Shown piece after piece: positions 12,284 to 24,355 of a stretch of DNA of 34,037 nucleotides; position 1 is the first letter of the stretch; every line of letters starts with the position of its first letter. A program made the position numbers and the translations under genes. The notes beneath the pieces were generated by a model. It had not been told where the DNA came from and did no database searches. It was given only the letters and a program-made list of their open reading frames with translations. The stretch covers positions 1 to 34,037 of the forward strand of contig SKLK01000273.1 in assembly GCA_007123265.1 (NCBI GenBank), given 5' to 3'. Source of the stretch: Kiritimatiellia bacterium (GTDB taxonomy: Bacteria > Verrucomicrobiota > Kiritimatiellia > SLAD01).

Positions 12284-13705
12284 CTACCCCTGCAGGTTCA
12301 TTAAGAATTCGGCATTGCTCTTGGTCTTCTTCAGTCGGTTGATCAACAACTCCATGGCCTCAACAGCCGGCACATCCTTCAAGGCCTTGCGCAAGATCCA
12401 TATCCGATTCAATTCATCCGGATGCAATAGATTTTCTTCCTTTCGCGTGCCGGACTTTTCAATATTTATGGCGGGGAAAATACGTTTGTCGACCAGATTC
12501 CGATCCAGCCCCAACTCCATATTGCCCGTTCCTTTGAACTCTTCGAAGATGACCTCATCCATACGGCTACCGGTATCCACCAGCGCCGTAGCGATAATCG
12601 TCAGACTTCCGCCGCCCTCGATGTTTCGGGCGGCACCGAAAAAGCGTTTAGGCTTATGCAAGGCATTGGCATCCACGCCCCCCGACAGGATCTTGCCGCT
12701 GTGCGGTTGCAAGGTATTATAGGCGCGAGCCAGACGTGTGATACTATCCAAAAGAATCACCGCATGCTTGCCGTTCTCCACCATGCGCTTGGCCATTTCA
12801 ATCACGATCTCCGCCACTTGAACATGGCGTTCCGGCGGCTCGTCGAATGTCGAACTCAGCACTTCCGCCTTTGTATTCCGCTGCATGTCCGTCACTTCTT
12901 CCGGCCGCTCATCAATCAAGAGGACGATGAGTTTGGCATCCGGATTATTTGCGGAAATACTATTGGCCATTTGCTGCATCAACACCGTCTTACCGGTTCG
13001 AGGCGGCGCCACAATCAAGCCGCGCTGGCCCACGCCAATCGGAGTCAACAGATCCATCACGCGCATCGAAATATTTTCCGGTGACGTTTCCAACACAAAC
13101 CGTTTATCCGGGAACAAGGGGGTCAGATGTTCAAACGGAATAAGGTTCTTGGCGGAATCCGGGGCCTTTTCATTGATGTGCTCGACCTTGAGCAGGGCGA
13201 AGAAGCGCTCCTTCTCCTTCGGTGGCCGGATTTCACCATCGATAAAGTCACCCGTCCGCAACCCGAATCGTCGGATTTGTGACGGCGACACGTAGATGTC
13301 TTCCGGGCAAGGCAAATAATTGTAGTACGGAGACCGCAGAAACCCGAAGCCATCGGGCAGAATTTCGAGGATACCTCGACCGAACAACCGTCCGTTTTGC
13401 CGCGCATTTGCCTTCAGAATCTCAAATACCAATTCGTGCTTCACCAGCGCACTCAATTCAGACAGTCCCAGACTCTCACCAAATTTTACCAGGTCAGGCA
13501 CCGTTTGAACTTGTAGCTCATGCAGCAACAGTGTCGGGCCCGGCGGCAATGGGTTCCCGTTTTCGTCGAGAACCTCCTGACGCTCCACCACCTCTTCGCC
13601 ACCCCCGTCCGGCCCATTACCCCGGTTACGGTTCTTTTGGTGATGACGACGTCCCGGACGCCCACCCGAGCGGCCACGATTTCTTGATCGTTGTTCTTCA
13701 GCCAT
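12284..13705 (-). CDS. rho: Transcription termination factor Rho
   Basis: [157 protein letters not shown]; basic Arg/Gly-rich N-terminal extension. Confidence 0.98.
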
Positions 13706-13709
13706 AGTC

Positions 13710-14318
13710 TTACTTCTCCTTTTCCAAAATTGTTTGCCAAACGGACTCGGTCTGGCGCGTTAGTTCACTTATCGTTCCTTCATTCACAATCACGTAATCG
13801 GCCCATTTCATCTTTTCCGCGACCGGCCACTGCGCGGCAAGGCGCTGTCGACACTCCTCGTGGGAGAGTCCGCGTTCCTGCAATCGTTGCCACATCACCT
13901 GCTCCGAAGACGCCACACACAACACACAATCAAAATCCTTTTCCACCCCTACCTCATAGAGCAACGGGATGATGACGCCCCGCGCCGGTTTACCACCGTC
14001 CTCCGTAACGTTCAGCCACGACCGCCAGACCTGACGAACATGCGGATGCACCAATCGATTCAGTGCTTCGCGGTCCTCCGCAGAGGCGAATACGCGTGGT
14101 CCCAAAATCTTGCGGTCGATGGTTCCATCGGCATTAAGAATCGTTTCGCCAAAATAATTTCGTACGTCCTCATAGGCTGGCCCACCCGGGGCCATCACTT
14201 CATGCGCCACTTGATCCGCGTCCAGGATCGCCACGCCCTTTCCAGCTAAGATCCGTCCCACGGCGCTTTTCCCACAGGCAATACCGCCGGTAATTCCTAC
14301 TGTAACGCTGTCTGACAA
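13710..14318 (-). CDS. coaE: Dephospho-CoA kinase
   Basis: [97 protein letters not shown]. Confidence 0.95.
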
Positions 14319-14338: not shown

Positions 14339-16360
14339 TTACCGTTCCGGACGATACTCAAAGCCCTGATCCCGCAGGGTTGTCACCACCCGAATCACCT
14401 CTTGCGCCTGGTACTGACCGGGAAACAAGGCGACGGCTGCCCAGGCCAATCGCTCCGCCTCCTCGAGGTCACCTTCGGACAATGCCTGTCGGGCAAAGAT
14501 CGTGTGTTGATCCGCTAGTCGCTCGTCATCACGGGATCTGATCCGAAATAGCCGATACTTGGTATTACTCGCCTCTTCTTTGAACTCAAAATAGCGTGCC
14601 GCATGCGGATCGTACTCGAACAATCGTGCGGGCGCCGTTTCCGGCGGCTCCACAGCATCGACGAAATAGCGCATTTGCAGCTCCACATGGTGCGGGTAAA
14701 ACTCGCCCAACGCATACACAAAATAGTAGGCCCCATGCTGGTCTGCCCAATCCCTGAACGCTCGTTCGTCTCCCGTAAACAGCTTTCTGCCATATTGTTC
14801 AACGCGTTCTCTAATTTCCGGTGTTTCGAATTTCGGATGCAATACAATCGGACAATTTCCGTATGCCAATATCGATGCGCTCACCCCGAAGTTCGCTAGC
14901 ACCGGTTGTTCATTTCCATAGTGTCGCAGCCAATCGGTCAATTCCTGTAACTCACGATAGTACACATTGGGCCGACCCCATCGCCCCGGCTCCTCCCACA
15001 CCCGCGCCGCTTCAACCGCCCAGCCGAGGGCAAGCAGGGCGGCGAACAGATACACGGTCCAACTTCGTTGTTCCCGGGCGGAAGCCCAACAGCCGCCTAA
15101 CCATGCACATGCAAAAAGTCCCAGATAAATATGAAAGCGTACAAACAGGATATAAGCGAGGACAGACAGTATCAGGAAAAAAAAGATGTGCGCGGCTGTC
15201 GGCCTTGTCAATATACTCGAGGCATCGCGGCGTTTCCGCCAGCCCATCACGGCCAACCCGCTGGCAACCACTATGAGCACGAGAGTAGCTGGAAACAGAA
15301 TCCATGTCAATGACCATGTTGCCGAATCCAGTGCCGGCACCCACATGATGCGCTGATTAAACGTGAGTAGGGAAGGATCCATTGGTTTCACATTGAGAAA
15401 CCGGATCTTCGCGACCAGCAGTTCGGCGAAATGGCCGTAGTTCGCGCGATACCCATGGGGCACGAGCGCAAACAGTCCCCAAGGGACGGCCATGGCCGCT
15501 ATGCCCCGCCACCGGGGTGCGTGGCGCACGTGCTGCACGGCCATGCGAAGCAATAATCCATAGACCAGCAACAACGTCGGCGACATCCACAAGCCATGCG
15601 AACGATGGTAGGGTGAGAGCCATGCCACGAGGACAAGGCCGGCGGCCGGTGCCCCCCACCGCCATTGCTCCCGCAGGGCGTCGCCTGCTCCGCGAAAAAC
15701 GCGAACGCACCAAACGATCACCCACAACGCAGCGTAATACTGGATCATGTCCCAGGTCAGCAAGGCCATCCCTAAACCCAACGCGGAACCGATGACGGCC
15801 CAAATGGGACGGGGGCCGCTTTCGGACTCCCGCCAAGCGTGCAGCCAGAGGTGCGCAATCAGGAACGGAAAGGCAAAATTCTCCCGTGATATTTCGAGGC
15901 CGCTGGAACGGATCACCGTAGCCAACGACACCGCAAAGAAAGCGCCGGCAATGAAACCTGCCGAGCGTGACCGGGTCCACGCGAAGACCCATGCCGCCAC
16001 CAGCGGTGCCGACAAAGAGAACCAGACGATCATGATCCAGCGCACCCGCAGCGGCAGGGGCAACTCGCCGGGTAGTAGTCGCGCAAGGTACCCGTACACA
16101 TACTCTGCCAGCACGGTATCGGTTTTAAAGACATCAATACCATCCGGAAACTGAATCATCGGATCATGGGAAGGGATTCCTCGGCCCTCATATACGCGTT
16201 CGGTCATGCGAAATTGCAGCGCACTTTCCAACGTAAACGGCAATGCACCATCCAATCGGGCCTCATTCGCGTGCAATATAACGCCACGCGACGCGATGGC
16301 GAGCAGCCAAAGTACCAGCAATCCCGCGATCCAGAATATGTGTTGTTGTTTCGACTTCAT
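14339..16360 (-). CDS. Multi-pass membrane GT-C type protein, STT3/oligosaccharyltransferase-like
   Basis: 673 aa; many TM segments; acidic first-loop motif ESALQFRMTERVYEGRGIPSHDPMIQFPDG; C-terminal soluble part ELTDWLRHYGNEQPVLANFGVSASILAYGNCPIVLHPKFETPEIRERVEQYGRKLFTGDERAFRDWADQHGAYYFVYAL resembles the region after the TM bundle in STT3/GT-C proteins. Confidence 0.55.
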   Translation of the reverse strand: MKSKQQHIFWIAGLLVLWLLAIASRGVILHANEARLDGALPFTLESALQFRMTERVYEGRGIPSHDPMIQFPDGIDVFKTDTVLAEYVYGYLARLLPGELPLPLRVRWIMIVWFSLSAPLVAAWVFAWTRSRSAGFIAGAFFAVSLATVIRSSGLEISRENFAFPFLIAHLWLHAWRESESGPRPIWAVIGSALGLGMALLTWDMIQYYAALWVIVWCVRVFRGAGDALREQWRWGAPAAGLVLVAWLSPYHRSHGLWMSPTLLLVYGLLLRMAVQHVRHAPRWRGIAAMAVPWGLFALVPHGYRANYGHFAELLVAKIRFLNVKPMDPSLLTFNQRIMWVPALDSATWSLTWILFPATLVLIVVASGLAVMGWRKRRDASSILTRPTAAHIFFFLILSVLAYILFVRFHIYLGLFACAWLGGCWASAREQRSWTVYLFAALLALGWAVEAARVWEEPGRWGRPNVYYRELQELTDWLRHYGNEQPVLANFGVSASILAYGNCPIVLHPKFETPEIRERVEQYGRKLFTGDERAFRDWADQHGAYYFVYALGEFYPHHVELQMRYFVDAVEPPETAPARLFEYDPHAARYFEFKEEASNTKYRLFRIRSRDDERLADQHTIFARQALSEGDLEEAERLAWAAVALFPGQYQAQEVIRVVTTLRDQGFEYRPER

Positions 16361-16451: not shown

Positions 16452-17354
16452 TCAAAAGAGGGTCGGCGAGGCGACCGCTTTAGCCAACGACTTGAACTCC
16501 ATGCGCTGATAGAAGGCATGCAGCATGCGCGCATCCGCGCGCCCCACCTGCCAATTATCCCAATCAGGATTCACCGGCAGCTCACACTGCAAGCGCGTCA
16601 TGGTCAGGTTCCGCCATACGGCTTCTTCATGTTCGCGCAAGGCGACCGCCAATTTCTCCCGTGCCACCTCATTCAGTCGCGCATATAGTTCGTCCAACGA
16701 GCCAAACGACGTCAACAATTGAGCCGCTGTCTTCGGGCCGATCCCGGGCACCCCGGGAATATTGTCCGCCACATCCCCAACCAGCGCCAACCACTCGGCC
16801 ACTTGCGATGGCTGAACACCCGTCTTGGCCTCGACCTCAGCTGGTCCCATGCGCACCTCGGACTTGGTCGGCGGAATGATGCCGATACGTCCACTGGCCA
16901 GTTGCAACATGTCCTTATCGCTGGTGGCAATCAAACTGTCGCAATCGGCATCCACCGCTTTCTGCGCAATCGTCGCCAACAGATCGTCGGCTTCGCGACC
17001 ATCCTCCATCACGTAGCCGTAGCCTGCGCCACGCAAGTACTCGTGAATCAAATCGAACTGGCCGACCAAGGGTTCAGGCATGGCCTCCCGTTGCGCCTTG
17101 TACGACGGCAGTGCGGCGATTCGTTCTGCGGCCAAGCCACCATCAAAAACGGCACAGACATGACTTGGTTTCCAGTGTTGCACCAACTGTTCTGTCATCC
17201 GGATAAAGCCATACAACGCGTTCGTCGGCACGCCGTCCCGCGTGGATAGTTCGCGAATGGCATAATAGGCTCGGTACGCAACGGCATGACCGTCGATCAG
17301 GAGTAGACATTTAGTTGAACTCATGTGCGCAGGCTCATTCCCACCGGGCGTCAC
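16452..17354 (-). CDS. Standalone 5'-3' exonuclease (PolA N-terminal / FEN-type domain)
   Basis: LLIDGHAVAYRAYYAIRELSTRDGVPTNALYGFIRM, VCAVFDGG, ADDLLATIAQKA, IATSDKDMLQL, WLALVGDVADNIPGVPGIGPKTAAQLL; stops right after YQRMEFKSLAK. ATG at 17324 (MSSTK) is a plausible alternative start. Confidence 0.9.
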   Translation of the reverse strand: MTPGGNEPAHMSSTKCLLLIDGHAVAYRAYYAIRELSTRDGVPTNALYGFIRMTEQLVQHWKPSHVCAVFDGGLAAERIAALPSYKAQREAMPEPLVGQFDLIHEYLRGAGYGYVMEDGREADDLLATIAQKAVDADCDSLIATSDKDMLQLASGRIGIIPPTKSEVRMGPAEVEAKTGVQPSQVAEWLALVGDVADNIPGVPGIGPKTAAQLLTSFGSLDELYARLNEVAREKLAVALREHEEAVWRNLTMTRLQCELPVNPDWDNWQVGRADARMLHAFYQRMEFKSLAKAVASPTLF

Positions 17355-17451: not shown

Positions 17452-20418
17452 TTAGTCCATGGCTTGCAAGGTCATCGCATCGGCTCGATGAATCGGCTTG
17501 CCGGCCGGATCAACCAGACGCGCCGTCACGAAAATCAACAGATTTTCCTTCCGGCTGCGAGAGCCTTCCGTGCGAAACAAGCGGCCGAGTAGCGGGATAT
17601 CGCCCAAGATTGGAACTTTGTCCTTGATCGTCACCAAGCGCTCACGCATGAGACCACCCATCACCACGGTTTGCCCGTCCCAGATAACAATACTGGTCTG
17701 CACGTTACGGCTGGCAAAGACGGGTTGCGGAATATTGAAGGTAAAGTCGCGCAGGAAGAATCGGTCTGGATTGTCCGGATCACGTCCCGGAATGGAAATT
17801 TGTGAACCATACTGAATCCAATCCACCAGTTCCGCGACTTCCGGGGCCAGTGCCAAGTCAATGGTGTACCCATCCGGTCCCACGGTGGGTGTGACATTTA
17901 GAATGACACCGGTGCGACGGGTCTCAAAGTTTTCAGGCGTGACGACCGGCGGGGTGACCAATCCACCTTCCGACTGTGTAACCGGCTCTGTCACCCGGAA
18001 TTCCGTTGGGTAGATAATCTCGGTAACGACTTCGATGGATGCGTTCACGCCGCTTCGCGTGGTCACACGCGGCGCAGACAAGACATCCACGTTTCCGTTT
18101 TGCGAGAGGGCATGCAAGACCACCCGCATTTCCGGATTCGTCAAAATACTGGAAACGCTGAGGATGTTCCCCAAGAAGGCCGCGTCCTCCATCCCTGCGC
18201 GGACCGGCTCGACGCCACCCGAGGTTTGTGCAAAGAAGCGTTGTCCGGCACTGACATTGCCGGCATCCACCTGTACGCGTTCACGGCCACCAAACGGTGC
18301 GCTGCCCCGGCGTTGCAGGAATTCGTAGTTGTCGGTAAACAACCACTGCAAGCCCAATTCACGCATATCCTCTTCAGCCACTTCAACGAAGCGCGCCTCG
18401 ATTTCAACTTGGCTCGGGACAACGTTAAGTTGTGAAAGGATTCGCTCAAAGGTCTCCAGGTTTTCCGGCGTGTTGGCCACGATCAACTGGCTAATCGTCG
18501 GATTATAGCTAATCGAGGTCCCCACGGGGAATGGGACGCCTGCCCCTTCAAAAAAGGCCTTCACATCGCCGCCACGGGTACCGGATGGGGCCCGGCGTGT
18601 ACCAAATTCCTGGGCGCCACCGAAGAAGCCTCCTGTGGGCGCGGCTTCCTCGCGCTCCTGAACCACATCCAAAAAGGAAGGTTGAACCGGATACAGTCGA
18701 GTAACCACCCGCCCCACGTCGGCGATGCCCGATGGGGTAATCACCACTACACTATCTTCAATCCGGAAACGCAGACCGGCCACTTCCGTAATGAAGCGAA
18801 CGGCTTCCATCAGCGAAATCCGGCGCAGATTTAGGGTAATCGAGGGGACACCCGAGCCCCCAGCAGGCGCGGCCGGTGCGGCATCCCATTCATCGCCCCA
18901 CGGATCGTCCATTGCACTCGGTGTGCGGCGCTCCGCGGGCGCAGCGGACACGCCTTCGGGCATACTCAAATTCAAGATGATATTGACGCCTTCCCCTTCT
19001 GGGTCGGCGGCCTCACTGGCATCGCGCAGGAAGGAAACCACATCACGAATATTGGCCTGCCGGAATTCGATGCGGGGAATGATGATGGATTCCATCCGCT
19101 CTTGCAGCCGCCGGGATGGGGTGACCAGATCCTGGGGACCGGGCCGGGCCAAGTCCTCGGGAAGAACCGCTTCGCCGCGGTGGGGCGGCGTCCATGCTTC
19201 GCGCACATCGCGCATCATTTGCTCCGTCGTTGTTCGCCGCAGGACGTCGGACGCCCGGCGCTGATCTTCGGCTATGCGGCGCAAGTAGCGCATGGCGTCG
19301 GTATTGTATGGATCGCGAATCAGTACGCTTTCAAAAAGCATTTCGGATCGGTTGAGTTCTCCGGCCTCATAGTAGGCGCGGGCCTCCTGCAGAGTGTCCT
19401 CAATTGTACGGCGCTTTTCGACGATCTCGGGCCGCCGTTCGATGGGCACAGGTTGCGCGGCTTCGGCTTCGCGACGCGCTTCCTCACGGTTGATGCGGCG
19501 CTCCAGCAAGGCCAGTCCTCGGTGCGACGGTGAGAGCTCGCGGGTACGTGCCAGGTTTCGTCGCGCTTCACGCAGGTCGCCATCGTCACGATAGATTTGC
19601 TGCGCAATGCGGAAATGGGCTTCGGCCAATCCCCGGCGGGCATTTTCCCGCTCGTCCTGACGGGCGGGGCGATCCGGTATACGTTCAAGGGCCCGGGTAA
19701 AGGCGTCTCTCGCCGCCCGGTAGTCCTCCCGATCAAGGGCCCGGTGAGCGGCGTCCAGACTCTGCAGCCCATCCACTTCCGCCGCTTGCCGCCGGACTTC
19801 TTCCTGGGCCGCCAAATCAGCGGCTACGCGATCCGCCTCGGTCCTGACGCGCGGCTCTGGTTGTGGTTCCGGAACGTCTTCCACTTCATCGATGTCCTGG
19901 ATCACGTCGACCGCCGGATCCTCCAATGGAGGCACGTCTTCTACTGGCTCTTCCTCTTCTGGGAACAGGAAATCGTCCATCCAGTCTTCGGGCGCTTCCT
20001 CCACATCGTCCGGCCACTCATCCACGTCTACATCGGTGTCTGGCACATCCTCGGGAACCGTTTCCGGGGGTACCGGGTCGTCCTCTTCATCATCCCAAAA
20101 CCAATCGTCCTCATCGCTTTCGAACAGGTCATCGAAATCAAAATCATCATCTTCCGGCGGCGCCACCGGAGGGGCGACCGGTGCTGCGGGTTCGGGGACT
20201 TCTTCGCTGACGGGCTCGACGTCAGGCACGGGCTCCGCTGTGGGTTCCGGTTCGGGCTCCGGTTCGGGCTCCGGTTGCGGCTCAGGCGCGGGTTCGGCTT
20301 CTTCGACATCAATATCGAACAAGGCATCAAAATCGAAGTCGTCAAGGGCATGGCTTGTGCCGGGCCAAATCAGAACCTGGACCAAAAATACGACGATCAA
20401 GCTATTGATGACTCTCAT
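17452..20418 (-). CDS. Secretin (GspD/PilQ superfamily), Amuc_1098-like pilus outer-membrane channel
   Basis: 988 aa; signal peptide (MRVINSLIVVFLVQVLIWPGTSHA); Pro/Glu/Asp-rich region; TPR-like segment; N-domain repeats; secretin signature RRTGVILNVTPTVGPDGYTIDLALAPEV...VFASRNVQTSIVIWDGQTVVMGGLMRERLVTIKDKVPILGDIPLLGRLFRTEGSRSRKENLLIFVTARLVDPAG; GGAGATTCGG RBS. Confidence 0.93.
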   Translation of the reverse strand: MRVINSLIVVFLVQVLIWPGTSHALDDFDFDALFDIDVEEAEPAPEPQPEPEPEPEPEPTAEPVPDVEPVSEEVPEPAAPVAPPVAPPEDDDFDFDDLFESDEDDWFWDDEEDDPVPPETVPEDVPDTDVDVDEWPDDVEEAPEDWMDDFLFPEEEEPVEDVPPLEDPAVDVIQDIDEVEDVPEPQPEPRVRTEADRVAADLAAQEEVRRQAAEVDGLQSLDAAHRALDREDYRAARDAFTRALERIPDRPARQDERENARRGLAEAHFRIAQQIYRDDGDLREARRNLARTRELSPSHRGLALLERRINREEARREAEAAQPVPIERRPEIVEKRRTIEDTLQEARAYYEAGELNRSEMLFESVLIRDPYNTDAMRYLRRIAEDQRRASDVLRRTTTEQMMRDVREAWTPPHRGEAVLPEDLARPGPQDLVTPSRRLQERMESIIIPRIEFRQANIRDVVSFLRDASEAADPEGEGVNIILNLSMPEGVSAAPAERRTPSAMDDPWGDEWDAAPAAPAGGSGVPSITLNLRRISLMEAVRFITEVAGLRFRIEDSVVVITPSGIADVGRVVTRLYPVQPSFLDVVQEREEAAPTGGFFGGAQEFGTRRAPSGTRGGDVKAFFEGAGVPFPVGTSISYNPTISQLIVANTPENLETFERILSQLNVVPSQVEIEARFVEVAEEDMRELGLQWLFTDNYEFLQRRGSAPFGGRERVQVDAGNVSAGQRFFAQTSGGVEPVRAGMEDAAFLGNILSVSSILTNPEMRVVLHALSQNGNVDVLSAPRVTTRSGVNASIEVVTEIIYPTEFRVTEPVTQSEGGLVTPPVVTPENFETRRTGVILNVTPTVGPDGYTIDLALAPEVAELVDWIQYGSQISIPGRDPDNPDRFFLRDFTFNIPQPVFASRNVQTSIVIWDGQTVVMGGLMRERLVTIKDKVPILGDIPLLGRLFRTEGSRSRKENLLIFVTARLVDPAGKPIHRADAMTLQAMD
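20243..20284 (+). repeat. Short in-frame tandem repeat encoding (PE)n in the secretin N-terminal region
   Basis: Tandem GGTTCGGGCTCC-type 12-nt units, encoding QPEPEPEPEPEP on the minus strand. Confidence 0.7.
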
Positions 20419-20514
20419 CCGAATCTCCTTCTGCCAACGATAACACGCTCCCTATAAGTCGCGCCTACCCAATTTGCTTCCATCCTTATGAGCATGGAAT
20501 CGGTGTATTACCCA

Positions 20515-21615
20515 TTATTGGCCCATTTGCTCCAATAAAGCTTCAAAATCAAAATCAACTGCAGGCGCACCCCCGGTCGTACCCGCTGCCCGGGGCCGAT
20601 CCTGCGGCCGTGCTTGCTCCACAACCACTTCCTGGTTCCGATTTTCGTCCAGAATTAAAACGGTATCCCTGCGTATGTCAACGACTTTGTACGGCTGGTT
20701 CATGAGCGTTATCTCAGAACCTTCGCGCACACGGAAGATGGAGTCGTCGACGAGGAAGACCAATTCAGCCACACGTTCGTCAATGCGCACATCCGTGTCC
20801 ACGCGCAATTCAATCTGGCGACCATCGGCTCGCTCCAACTTCAAGACCGATCCATCAATGGGGCCCAAGGGTCCGGGACGGGTGCGGCGCTCGAAATCAA
20901 CCAGGCGATAGCCTTCCACCATTTCCCCGAGCGCAACGAAAAAGGTCCGGTCCCGCTCGCGCAGGTTAAGCTGGAAGCGATAGTCGCCTTCTGCGATTTC
21001 GTGAACCCCTTGGAACCGTAGCCGGAAAGGAATCTCGCGAATCTGGCGCCAACGCAGTTTCAGTGCATGCGACGGATGGTCCTCCGCATCCACGGGACTG
21101 GTACCAGCCTCAAACTCTTCGCGCACGGTAAACCCGTCACCGTCCAAGTCCCGCTCACCAATGTCGGGGTCCAGCGGATCCAACCCGAAACCGGTGAGCC
21201 ATTGATCCGGGATTCCGTCACCGGTGGTATCCCGCTCGGCTTGGGTCGGTTGCGGGTATTGGGTCCAAGGACACACTTCCGCATCATAGGGTATCGGCGT
21301 CGGCACATCGGGATTCACACTAACCACGCGCAGCTCACTGACCATCAGGGCATGGTCTCGAGCTTCCATTTGAGGTGGCTGCTCCAACCGCCGGGCAAAG
21401 GCACGAAACTGGGAGATATCGATGGCTTCGTAATGCTGATGCCCGACATCGATCCGATCCCAACTGGTATCGGTCAGCGCGCGCTGAGCCTTCTGGTTTT
21501 GGAGCAGCAGGAATAGCGCGGAGGCCAAAAGAACGACCAAGACCGCAACAATCGCAACTTTGTCGTAGTGCACTTTCAACCAAGATCGCTCTTTGGTTCG
21601 TGTCGCTGCGCTCAT
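20515..21615 (-). CDS. Amuc_1099-like pilus-system membrane protein
   Basis: 366 aa; single N-terminal TM (VAIVAVLVVLLASALFLLL); periplasmic part with a DxDGDG segment (DTTGDGIPDQWLTGFGLDPLDPDIGERDLDGDGFTVREEFEAGTSP); located between the secretin and the Amuc_1100-like gene with 4-nt overlap to the latter. Homology to Amuc_1099 is inferred mainly from context and architecture. Confidence 0.65.
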   Translation of the reverse strand: MSAATRTKERSWLKVHYDKVAIVAVLVVLLASALFLLLQNQKAQRALTDTSWDRIDVGHQHYEAIDISQFRAFARRLEQPPQMEARDHALMVSELRVVSVNPDVPTPIPYDAEVCPWTQYPQPTQAERDTTGDGIPDQWLTGFGLDPLDPDIGERDLDGDGFTVREEFEAGTSPVDAEDHPSHALKLRWRQIREIPFRLRFQGVHEIAEGDYRFQLNLRERDRTFFVALGEMVEGYRLVDFERRTRPGPLGPIDGSVLKLERADGRQIELRVDTDVRIDERVAELVFLVDDSIFRVREGSEITLMNQPYKVVDIRRDTVLILDENRNQEVVVEQARPQDRPRAAGTTGGAPAVDFDFEALLEQMGQ

Positions 21616-22598
21616 GATTCCTGGTCCTCTTCTGCGGCGGCATGTTTGAAGTGATACACGTCTACCTCCATACGCACACGCACACGTTCACGACCAGCCA
21701 CCACGCGATCTTCGTGGAATCGGGGCTGCGCAATCTCCTCCGCGCGGGGCCTGTCCGCGCCCGGTCGTTCGGATTCCCGCGGGGCCAACCGCGCCGCTAG
21801 CCGGGCCGAGGCGGAGGTGCCGCCCAATCCCATTTCATTGCGCAATTCCAAGCTGCGCACCACCATCAATACGGGACTGGCCACCATTCGATTGAGTGCC
21901 TCACGCAGGGCCTCATCACTGGCCATAAAGGAAAGGGTATAGCGCTCACGCGTATAGAGTCCCTCGACACCATCCGGTTCAATCCGGATTTCAGGCTCGA
22001 CGACACGCTCGGTCACGCCCCTGCGGGTGCCGGTATCAGCCAGCTCACGCTGCGTTCGCTCCACATCGAAAACTTCCCGGTCCACACTGGTGAGCTCATG
22101 GATTCCCGCGTTGATCAACAGCACACTGATCCGCTCAACCATTTGCAACTGCGACATTAAGCGCGGCACATGCTCCTGCCGCGGCAAATTCCCTGCGGCA
22201 TATTGACCAAAACCAAATTCAGCCGCCTCAGGAATTCGGACGTTGTTACGTGCCGCCAACTCCCGGATTCGCCGCATGGTTCGTTCCCGGTGTGGCGGAA
22301 ATGCCACCCGCTCTATCTCGGCTGCCTCGGCTTGGTGTGCAGACAGAGCCGACAATAGAGAGCCACGATAATTTTGCAATTGTTCCAAGTTGGCTTCCAG
22401 CCGCGCTACATTTTCATTCGACGGGAAAGGTGCCCGCCGATGCAATTGCTCAAGCACCCGCAAATTCCGCTGCAGATCGTCTTGAATCCGCGCATACTCG
22501 CGGCTGGACCGGATCAGTAGAAACACCACGATCAACGCCAACACCAAGGCGATGCCACCGCCCACCACTAAAACGGTATGTTTTTTGAAAAAGGTCAT
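21612..22598 (-). CDS. Amuc_1100-like (PilO-like) pilus-system inner-membrane protein
   Basis: 328 aa; TM (TVLVVGGGIALVLALIVVFLLI), long coiled coil (REYARIQDDLQRNLRVLEQLHRRAPFPSNENVARLEANLEQLQNYRGSLLSALSA), then alpha/beta region; Amuc_1100-like layout and position next to PilM. Confidence 0.7.
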   Translation of the reverse strand: MTFFKKHTVLVVGGGIALVLALIVVFLLIRSSREYARIQDDLQRNLRVLEQLHRRAPFPSNENVARLEANLEQLQNYRGSLLSALSAHQAEAAEIERVAFPPHRERTMRRIRELAARNNVRIPEAAEFGFGQYAAGNLPRQEHVPRLMSQLQMVERISVLLINAGIHELTSVDREVFDVERTQRELADTGTRRGVTERVVEPEIRIEPDGVEGLYTRERYTLSFMASDEALREALNRMVASPVLMVVRSLELRNEMGLGGTSASARLAARLAPRESERPGADRPRAEEIAQPRFHEDRVVAGRERVRVRMEVDVYHFKHAAAEEDQES

Positions 22599-24355
22599 AG
22601 TTCTATGGGCTCTTCCAGCACCAACATCATCCCGAATTCACGCACATAGGTATTCGGCGCAACCGGGGGCAGCAGGTCAATATCGGAACTATCGGTAAAA
22701 TGAGGCAATTCCCGCAGACTGGTTCGCAAGGCATAGACGGGCCGCTCGTCCGGAATTTTGTCCGTGTAGCCCAGACCGGATATACGGATCCGGTTAATAT
22801 TTCCCAGCTCAACCGTCGCGCTACGATCGCCCCCCCGCGCGGCACGCCCACCGGTGGCAGGATCGGGCTCCCGGGTAATGCGCTCCCGCTGCGGGACGAC
22901 GGATGTCAACCACATGCCATCCGGCAATAAGGCATTGACGTCGTCAAGAATCTCCACCCACCGCCCGGCGTTTCGGATCAATGCATGCACTTGATCAATT
23001 TGCTCGGTGACATCCGCGATCTCCTGCTCCGGCAACTGCATTTGCCGCTCTATATGCTGGAGATTACGCACCCGCTCCTCGACCCGGGATAGCCGTTGCT
23101 CGCCCAAACGGGCCAACGTGTGGAAATAGAAGGTCCACACCAGCAGAACAAAGACAAAACCAAACGCCGCCGCCAGCAGGATCGGATGCTTCTTGCGGAA
23201 TTGTTTTTCGGAAACAACGCGGGGCGGCATCAGGTCGATTTCGATCGGACAGGTCAACACGCGCCGCAACGCCAGGCCCACCACTTCGCCCAGCATGTGC
23301 GCGTCGCGACCGATCTCCTCCGCAGAGATGTCGTCGGCCACGGCCACATTCATGAACGGATTGAGATACTCGACCTCGGCCTTGAGCTTGTCCTTTAAGA
23401 AAACGTCGGTGTACGGGATAACCGAGGTGCCTCCGGTCAACAAAATGCGCTTGGGCTGCGACCCGTCTTGCTGTCCGCGGTAAAAGTTGATGCTACGATT
23501 GATCTCCGCATGCAAGCGGGTCATCACACTACGCACACTCTTGGATACCTTGTCCGCCACCTCACCGGACGGGCTTTCATACGCCCCACCCCACGCGACA
23601 AACGCCTGGGCTTTCTTCATGTCTTCGGCATCCGCAAAAGACAATTCGAACTCGCGCATGACTTGCTGCGTAATCGCATTGCCGCCGACCGGAATGCTTC
23701 GGCTAAAGACGCGATTCGCTTCAAGGAAAATCAAGTCCGTCGAGCGCGCACCCATATCGATGATCAAGGTGCAATCGCTAAGATCATCGTAATTGTAGCG
23801 TACGGCATTATACAGCGCCATGGGCGCGACATCGATCAGGTCCGGGAAAAGGCCGGCCTGCTCAACCGCTTCGGTCAATTCGGTGATGATTTCGCCCTTG
23901 ATCGCGGCCAACATCACATCGAGATCGCCTTCGGTGCCGCCGATCAATTGATAATCCCAAACGACTTCTTCGATGGGAAAAGGCACGTTCTGCTGGGCCT
24001 CGTATTCGACGATCTGTTTGACCTTGTCTTCGTCGACCGGCGGCAACTTGACGAAACGGGAAAAAACGGATTGTCCGGAAACCGAAATAAGCACCGGTCC
24101 CGGCTTGATGTCGTACTCGGCCAACATCTCTTGAATCGTGCTGACGATGTAAACATTCCGATCACCGTCGGAATGGGGATCCAATCCCAGCGGGCTGATC
24201 GCATGCTTGACGAGCTCGATCCCGCCGGATTTTAACGGGATGAATTCGGCCATTTTCAGGCCGCTTGCGCCTATGTCCAATGCCAGAATGCGGTCAGTCT
24301 TTAGCATGATCTGCGTATCTTTACCGGTTCGTTTTATGCTCTCTGCCTGCATCAA
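22595..24355 (-). CDS. PilM-PilN fusion-like protein (Amuc_1101-like)
   Basis: PilM actin-like domain (RILALDIGASGLKMAEF, YEAQQNVPFPIEEVVWDYQ, IIDMGARSTDLIF, SRSIPVGGNAITQQV, RILLTGGTSVIPYTDVFLKDKL) continuing into IEIDLMPPR, one TM, coiled coil and alpha/beta tail as in PilN. ATG at 24307 (MLKTD) is an alternative start. Confidence 0.88.
   Translation of the reverse strand: MMQAESIKRTGKDTQIMLKTDRILALDIGASGLKMAEFIPLKSGGIELVKHAISPLGLDPHSDGDRNVYIVSTIQEMLAEYDIKPGPVLISVSGQSVFSRFVKLPPVDEDKVKQIVEYEAQQNVPFPIEEVVWDYQLIGGTEGDLDVMLAAIKGEIITELTEAVEQAGLFPDLIDVAPMALYNAVRYNYDDLSDCTLIIDMGARSTDLIFLEANRVFSRSIPVGGNAITQQVMREFELSFADAEDMKKAQAFVAWGGAYESPSGEVADKVSKSVRSVMTRLHAEINRSINFYRGQQDGSQPKRILLTGGTSVIPYTDVFLKDKLKAEVEYLNPFMNVAVADDISAEEIGRDAHMLGEVVGLALRRVLTCPIEIDLMPPRVVSEKQFRKKHPILLAAAFGFVFVLLVWTFYFHTLARLGEQRLSRVEERVRNLQHIERQMQLPEQEIADVTEQIDQVHALIRNAGRWVEILDDVNALLPDGMWLTSVVPQRERITREPDPATGGRAARGGDRSATVELGNINRIRISGLGYTDKIPDERPVYALRTSLRELPHFTDSSDIDLLPPVAPNTYVREFGMMLVLEEPIEL

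Follow-up and report, generated by a model that had tools for sequence, protein, structure and literature searches.

A block of four co-directional genes in a Kiritimatiellia genome is likely to encode two parts of a retractable type IVa-like pilus, its alignment complex and its outer-membrane pore. The block occupies positions 17452–24355, minus strand, of the 34,037-nucleotide (nt) stretch of contig SKLK01000273.1 (assembly GCA_007123265.1) that was analysed, referred to here as the window; the window is contig C62 of genome G000, a 2.43 Mb assembly in 290 contigs that is 89% complete. The products resemble Amuc_1101, Amuc_1100, Amuc_1099 and Amuc_1098 of Akkermansia muciniphila, and we refer to them as 1101, 1100, 1099 and 1098. 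In a coherent reading, Amuc_1098–1101 correspond to PilQ, a protein like PilP, PilO and PilM-PilN in a pilus machine shared across the phylum, and the pilus would serve in surface or particle attachment, perhaps also in glycan capture.

Components of the block

The original prediction, made from the DNA letters alone, described four co-directional genes with 4-nt overlaps among the first three, and minus-strand open reading frames (ORFs) are found exactly where it placed them: 1101 at 22595–24355 (586 amino acids as listed), 1100 at 21612–22598 (328 amino acids), 1099 at 20515–21615 (366 amino acids) and 1098 at 17452–20418 (988 amino acids). The overlaps are at 22595–22598 (1101/1100) and 21612–21615 (1100/1099), and 96 nt separate 1099 from 1098. 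Searches with NCBIfam hidden Markov models (HMMs) match all four products to the Akkermansia families and in the same order: 1101 to Amuc_1101_fam (E 1.9e-160, 535.7 bits, curated cut-off 650), 1100 to Amuc_1100_fam (E 6.4e-36, profile positions 1–326 of 326, 124.4 bits, cut-off 180), 1099 to Amuc_1099_fam (E 2.4e-29, 102.9 bits, cut-off 50) and 1098 to Amuc_1098_fam (E 2.1e-148, residues 198–977, 495.8 bits, cut-off 750). Only 1099 exceeds its curated cut-off; 1098, 1100 and 1101 are best described as divergent homologues, matched over most of their length but below the equivalog cut-offs and so not named automatically. The succession 1101-1100-1099-1098 mirrors pilM-N-O-P-Q, as had been proposed, and the homology of the two middle proteins, previously argued from layout and position only, is now supported by sequence for both and by structure for 1100.

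The 1101 protein is, on the evidence of profile matches, a natural PilM-PilN fusion. It scores 170.6 bits against TIGR01175 (PilM; cut-off 133), and a profile built from 20 sequences of the 1101 family matches two chains of the Myxococcus xanthus type IVa pilus machine model 3jc8, with PilM (3jc8_Ma) matched at positions 6–348 (E 4.7e-66) and PilN (3jc8_Na) at positions 353–520 in the C-terminal half (E 4.2e-11). At the PilM/PilN junction, just before the transmembrane (TM) helix, lies the motif IDLMP (residues 373–377; 23225–23239, minus strand), which is similar to INLLP, the PilM-binding element of PilN. A scan of homologues found motifs of this class in the 1101 linker of 84 of 112 proteins, as against 2 of 228 control segments taken from the same proteins. 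The TTG start of 1101 as listed is probably too far upstream: the match to the family profile starts only at residue 17, the ATG at 24307, which is also where relatives start.

The 1100 protein has an N-terminal TM helix, a coiled coil and an alpha/beta domain, and its AlphaFold model (predicted local distance difference test score, pLDDT, 84.9) resembles the Amuc_1100 crystal structures in Foldseek comparisons, with E down to 2.6e-11 and a TM-score to target of up to 0.84; the 1100 profile likewise finds the crystal sequences (E 6.3e-26). The next match is PilO of P. aeruginosa (2rjz; probability 1.00, TM-score to target 0.56, E 0.013), and other PilO matches are 5uvr (probability 0.97) and chain Oa of 3jc8. 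The earlier proposal of an Amuc_1100-like protein in the PilO position thus stands as to position but understates the relationship, which is more than positional, since the closest structural match other than Amuc_1100 is PilO itself. In a crude scan, which leaves cleavage undecided, the hydrophobic N-terminal segment resembles a TM helix in about 90% of 1100 homologues, and signal-peptidase-like sites occur in 56%.

Amuc_1100 of Akkermansia therefore probably began as an ordinary internal part, the PilO, of a pilus machine. The protein has been described as outer-membrane and pilus-associated, and a personal communication locates it on pili (PMC5332112, PMC10688800); it has been renamed "pilus-associated signaling protein" (PMC10688800). 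Should it prove to be the PilO of a pilus machine found across the phylum, its natural place would be in the inner-membrane ring with its domain in the periplasm, and its TLR2 activity would count as secondary and call for re-examination by localisation. The assignment is of interest as Amuc_1100 is studied as a probiotic effector.

The protein in the PilP position, 1099, is predicted to have an N-terminal TM helix, a thrombospondin type 3 (TSP3) module and C-terminal beta domains (AlphaFold model, pLDDT 87.4). Pfam alone gives no useful assignment for either 1099 or 1100, and a Foldseek search with the 1099 model returns mostly unrelated beta proteins, so that just its PilP match is used, as weak support. 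The TSP3/EF-hand-like module spans residues ~127–176 (21088–21237, minus strand), is identified by a match to MtsD thrombospondin-3 at residues 127–176, and is predicted to bind calcium. The bacterial form of the repeat (PF18884, TSP3_bac) is present in 40 of 62 homologues of 1099 (best E 7e-13). Some relatives carry zinc-ribbon cysteines that are absent from the window's 1099.

The last gene of the block, 1098, codes for a secretin with an N-terminal hydrophobic segment, an acidic linker, a TPR-like region and a secretin domain (PF00263, 128.6 bits, above cut-off; 17509–18111, minus strand). It falls below cut-off with both the PilQ model (142.7 bits; cut-off 284) and the GspD model (173.2 bits; cut-off 351.35). 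TPR models of Pfam match the N-terminal region below threshold, and a similar region has been noted for the Akkermansia PilQ (PMC4960237). The linker (residues 27–196; 19831–20340, minus strand) is hyperacidic and proline-rich, with 42% D/E, 21% P and 1% K/R, and together with those of the window's nearest relatives is among the most acidic of all homologues, the phylum median being far lower; this is possibly an adaptation to salt. In some blocks there is a tandem pair of Amuc_1098-like secretin ORFs (L048 and L087, both full-length, and also L112, L167 and L177).

Motor genes and competing explanations

The motor genes of a type IV pilus are present in the same genome. Contig C53 carries PilB-PilT-PilB-PilC in a row and no secretin, and its PilT (461 bits, cut-off 319) is the only PilT above cut-off listed for this genome. 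The T2SSE and T2SSF families are also above cut-off in the genome, and the PilB model gives 650.5 against a cut-off of 675.65, so that naming as PilB or GspE is ambiguous. The description of the block as a reduced machine is accordingly not upheld, with PilN fused to PilM and PilB, PilT and PilC encoded on C53.

In relatives the motor genes adjoin the block itself. In G157 the order on one strand is rho-coaE-STT3-1098-1099-1100-1101-1102-PilC-PilB-PilT-PilB, with 169 nt between 1102 and PilC, and three Verrucomicrobia metagenome-assembled genomes (MAGs; L149, L150 and L156) have PilC-PilB-PilT after the block with one gene between. In G015, which like G157 belongs to Kiritimatiellia, PilB-PilT-PilB-PilC is followed on the same strand by prepilin-like genes and then by 1102 and the block (the PilC ORF is L183:6638-7948); G190 and G023 also have prepilin-like genes upstream of the block. 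G157 and G015 were fetched since their coordinates suggested linkage and are not an unbiased sample. By our own estimate about 0.35 loci would be linked by chance, and one independent clade among 80 unbiased loci would be unsurprising alone; the weight of the linkage comes from near-adjacency in two clades together with the operon-like layout in G157 and G015. No other evidence ties the block so directly to a type IV pilus that has a retraction motor, and the linkage leads to the prediction that in Akkermansia, too, these genes build a retractable pilus. A lone PilC-like gene near the block in L049 was not used.

PilT is above cut-off in 276 of 289 genomes, and Amuc_1100 is present in 219 of these 276 as against 5 of the 13 others (Fisher p 0.002), a comparison that is confounded by phylogeny and is not independent proof because the genomes without PilT above cut-off come mostly from two families, f37 and f41. 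The association would match the absence of MUL2 from Methylacidiphilales in the literature only if f37 were that group.

In the proposed machine, 1101 would form a cytoplasmic actin-like PilM ring tied through the INLLP-like linker and TM helix to a periplasmic PilN domain, with which 1100, as PilO, would pair in the periplasm. From the PilP position 1099 would bridge the inner-membrane ring to 1098, a PilQ-type outer-membrane pore probably with a built-in, pilotin-like TPR segment. We infer that the C53 motor serves this block: its PilB would drive extension through PilC, the filament would exit by the pore, and PilT would retract it. The roles given to the parts here are those of the type IVa literature (PMC10191384). 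Relative to type IVa machines such as that of M. xanthus, the block shares PilM, PilN, PilO and secretin homologues in the canonical order, with PilB, PilC and PilT in the genome and adjoining the block in relatives, but differs in the fusion of PilM to PilN, in a larger PilP-position protein with a TSP3 module and in some relatives a zinc-ribbon, in the TPR-like region of the secretin, and in an extra conserved Sec-type protein, Amuc_1102.

In the Akkermansia cluster Amuc_1102 sits upstream of 1101, a place held in the window by trmJ. An Amuc_1102-like gene is displaced to G000:C78:3971-4543 (61.8 bits, NCBIfam cut-off 55), and it is displaced in G243 and G115 too. Although Amuc_1102 is reported to be structurally similar to an archaeal pilin (PMC13174399), a prepilin cleavage motif was found in none of 69 Amuc_1102 homologues with a simple pattern rather than a trained predictor, and most of the 69 have a Sec-like N-terminus. 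It is possible, though we offer it only tentatively, that these features define an ancestral Verrucomicrobiota subtype of the type IVa pilus, with PilM and PilN fused, a PilP bearing TSP3 and sometimes zinc-ribbon modules, a pilotin-like segment in the secretin, and, in Amuc_1102, a further subunit that is secreted by Sec to the periplasm or surface and is not a pilin. Were this so, the TSP3 and zinc-ribbon modules could make pilus assembly sensitive to metals, and in Amuc_1100 a PilO would have been put to secondary use in host signalling.

Several observations weigh against a retractable type IVa-like pilus. Pfam PilO does not match the 1100 proteins, so that the PilO assignment comes from structure alone, and immunofluorescence places Amuc_1100 at the cell surface (PMC5332112), a poor fit to a purely inner-membrane PilO. 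Pfam PilP has no match in any 1099 member, and the Foldseek match of the 1099 model to PilP (2y4y) is weak (probability 0.77, E 0.18). The motor genes of this genome are on a different contig from the block, so that their pairing is by inference, and the genome has further ATPases from that superfamily; adjacency in relatives was seen in two clades, one of them chosen for its suggestive coordinates. Four genomes (G116, G208, G205 and G281) have an Amuc_1100 match and no PilT above cut-off, and may be non-retracting versions or reflect assembly gaps. A prepilin peptidase was not found in the 89%-complete assembly, while two of three genomes of the same genus that were searched have one, and none of the 11 N_methyl matches above cut-off in the genome is assigned as the major pilin.

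In an alternative reading the block would serve a type II secretion system (T2SS) as its assembly platform, with the PilM-PilN fusion as GspL, 1100 as GspM, 1099 as GspC and 1098 as GspD. In its favour, PilM and PilN are likewise fused in GspL (PulL) (PMC10191384), T2SSL is weakly matched by 5 of 20 1101 members and T2SSM_b by 7 of 70 1100 members in Pfam, and the prepilin-like genes that precede the block in relatives could encode pseudopilins. We nonetheless regard this as improbable. The 1098 secretin, at 173 bits, is far from the GspD cut-off of 351, and the genome has a separate type II system, with GspE, GspF, pseudopilin-like genes and a GspL-like gene on C121 and a GspM-like gene and a GspD (433, cut-off 351) on C66; a further secretin-GspE-GspF set is on C185. 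PilT, which is absent from T2SS (PMC10191384), adjoins the block in two clades. The two middle proteins match the Amuc_1100 and Amuc_1099 families, and the best matches of the 1100 model include PilO and not EpsM/GspM, contrary to the T2SS alternative that the original prediction had named.

A static adhesion or glycan-capture apparatus, following the MUL2 idea, with Amuc_1102 as a surface fibre and no dynamic pilus, would accommodate the ties of MUL2 genes to mucin use and particle attachment and the reported likeness of Amuc_1102 to an archaeal pilin structure (PMC13174399), as well as the four genomes with 1100 and without a PilT above cut-off. It too seems unlikely when set against the prevalence of PilT, the adjoining motor genes in two clades and the Sec-like, motif-free Amuc_1102 sequences; moreover, glycan capture and a retractable pilus are compatible and not exclusive. 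There is next to no chance that the resemblance to Akkermansia is purely positional and the two middle proteins unrelated. When single sequences are compared with an Akkermansia-type block (L079), identity is low, at 24% in 1099 and 29% in 1101, but the NCBIfam matches cover most of each protein, the 1100 profile matches the Amuc_1100 crystal sequences as well as the structures, and gene order and flanks are conserved; the sequence and structure matches already refute the idea. The retractable type IVa-like pilus is thus the reading that we retain.

The extension-type ATPases on C53 (L070:6289-8001) and C121 (L071:3152-4873) have sub-threshold matches to an MshE-type cyclic di-GMP-binding motif.

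Spread and genomic surroundings

Of 289 Verrucomicrobiota genomes sampled, 224 have relatives of Amuc_1100. Each of the 31 blocks inspected first preserves the order 1101-1100-1099-1098 (the L036 contig ends within 1098), often beside coaE-rho, and 80 further named loci do so wherever the contig is long enough, with coaE-rho next in many. In a tree of 1101 most GTDB families stay together and the window groups with its own genus and family, the pattern that vertical descent would give. Among named relatives the nearest are Kiritimatiellae MAGs labelled CSSed, a label we take to denote soda-lake sediment, with 1101 identities of up to 80%, and the host is very probably an environmental member of Kiritimatiellia and not a gut mucin specialist. 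Two MAG labels look doubtful: the L117 "Neomarinimicrobiota" contig has 55% identity to the window's 1101, and the 1101 of L159, "Akkermansia muciniphila", is 43% identical to that of the window as against 29% for the Akkermansia-like L079.

The comparative sequence data uphold the view of an old block that is not confined to gut mucin specialists, in agreement with the suggestion of an older, core envelope machine, which is only partly new: conservation in aquatic Akkermansiaceae and other Verrucomicrobiales is already published (PMC4960237, PMC13174399). In the latter study (ISME J 2026) the locus is common among Verrucomicrobiales, shows less conservation among Chthoniobacterales and was not detected in Methylacidiphilales; Kiritimatiellia are not mentioned. 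The system is now placed in environmental Kiritimatiellia, outside the order of its original description. Relative to the cited literature, the new elements are this extension, the linkage to motor genes, the assignment of 1100 as PilO and of 1101 as PilM-PilN, the TSP3 calcium-repeat module of the protein in the PilP position and the Amuc_1102 homologues without a prepilin motif, although earlier mention elsewhere of the PilO likeness or of motor genes is possible.

Relative to the A. muciniphila cluster Amuc_1098–1102 (MUL2; NF042912, NF042425, NF038287, NF045709 and NF042424), the window has the same four genes, order and coaE-rho neighbourhood, with 1102 elsewhere in the genome. It differs in having 1102 on another contig and 1098, 1100 and 1101 below equivalog cut-offs, and in the TSP3-like module of 1099, the hyperacidic secretin linker and its environmental Kiritimatiellia clade.

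Housekeeping genes make up most of the neighbourhood of the block: rho, coaE, a PolA-type exonuclease, trmJ, clpX, clpP and trigger factor. The conserved flanks rho (12284–13705, minus strand) and coaE (dephospho-CoA kinase; 13710–14318, minus strand) also adjoin the locus in Akkermansiaceae (PMC13174399). Next to coaE, and in a conserved position in Kiritimatiellia, is a gene for a Dpy19/STT3-like GT-C membrane glycosyltransferase (14339–16360, minus strand; PF10034, E 1.4e-10), which could glycosylate a pilus or envelope protein. Adjoining the secretin gene is a 300-amino-acid PolA-type 5′-3′ exonuclease (16452–17354, minus strand) that matches only the 5′-3′ exonuclease part of DNA polymerase I; its homologues keep the same position in many relatives, so that it looks like a conserved stand-alone enzyme and not a broken polA.

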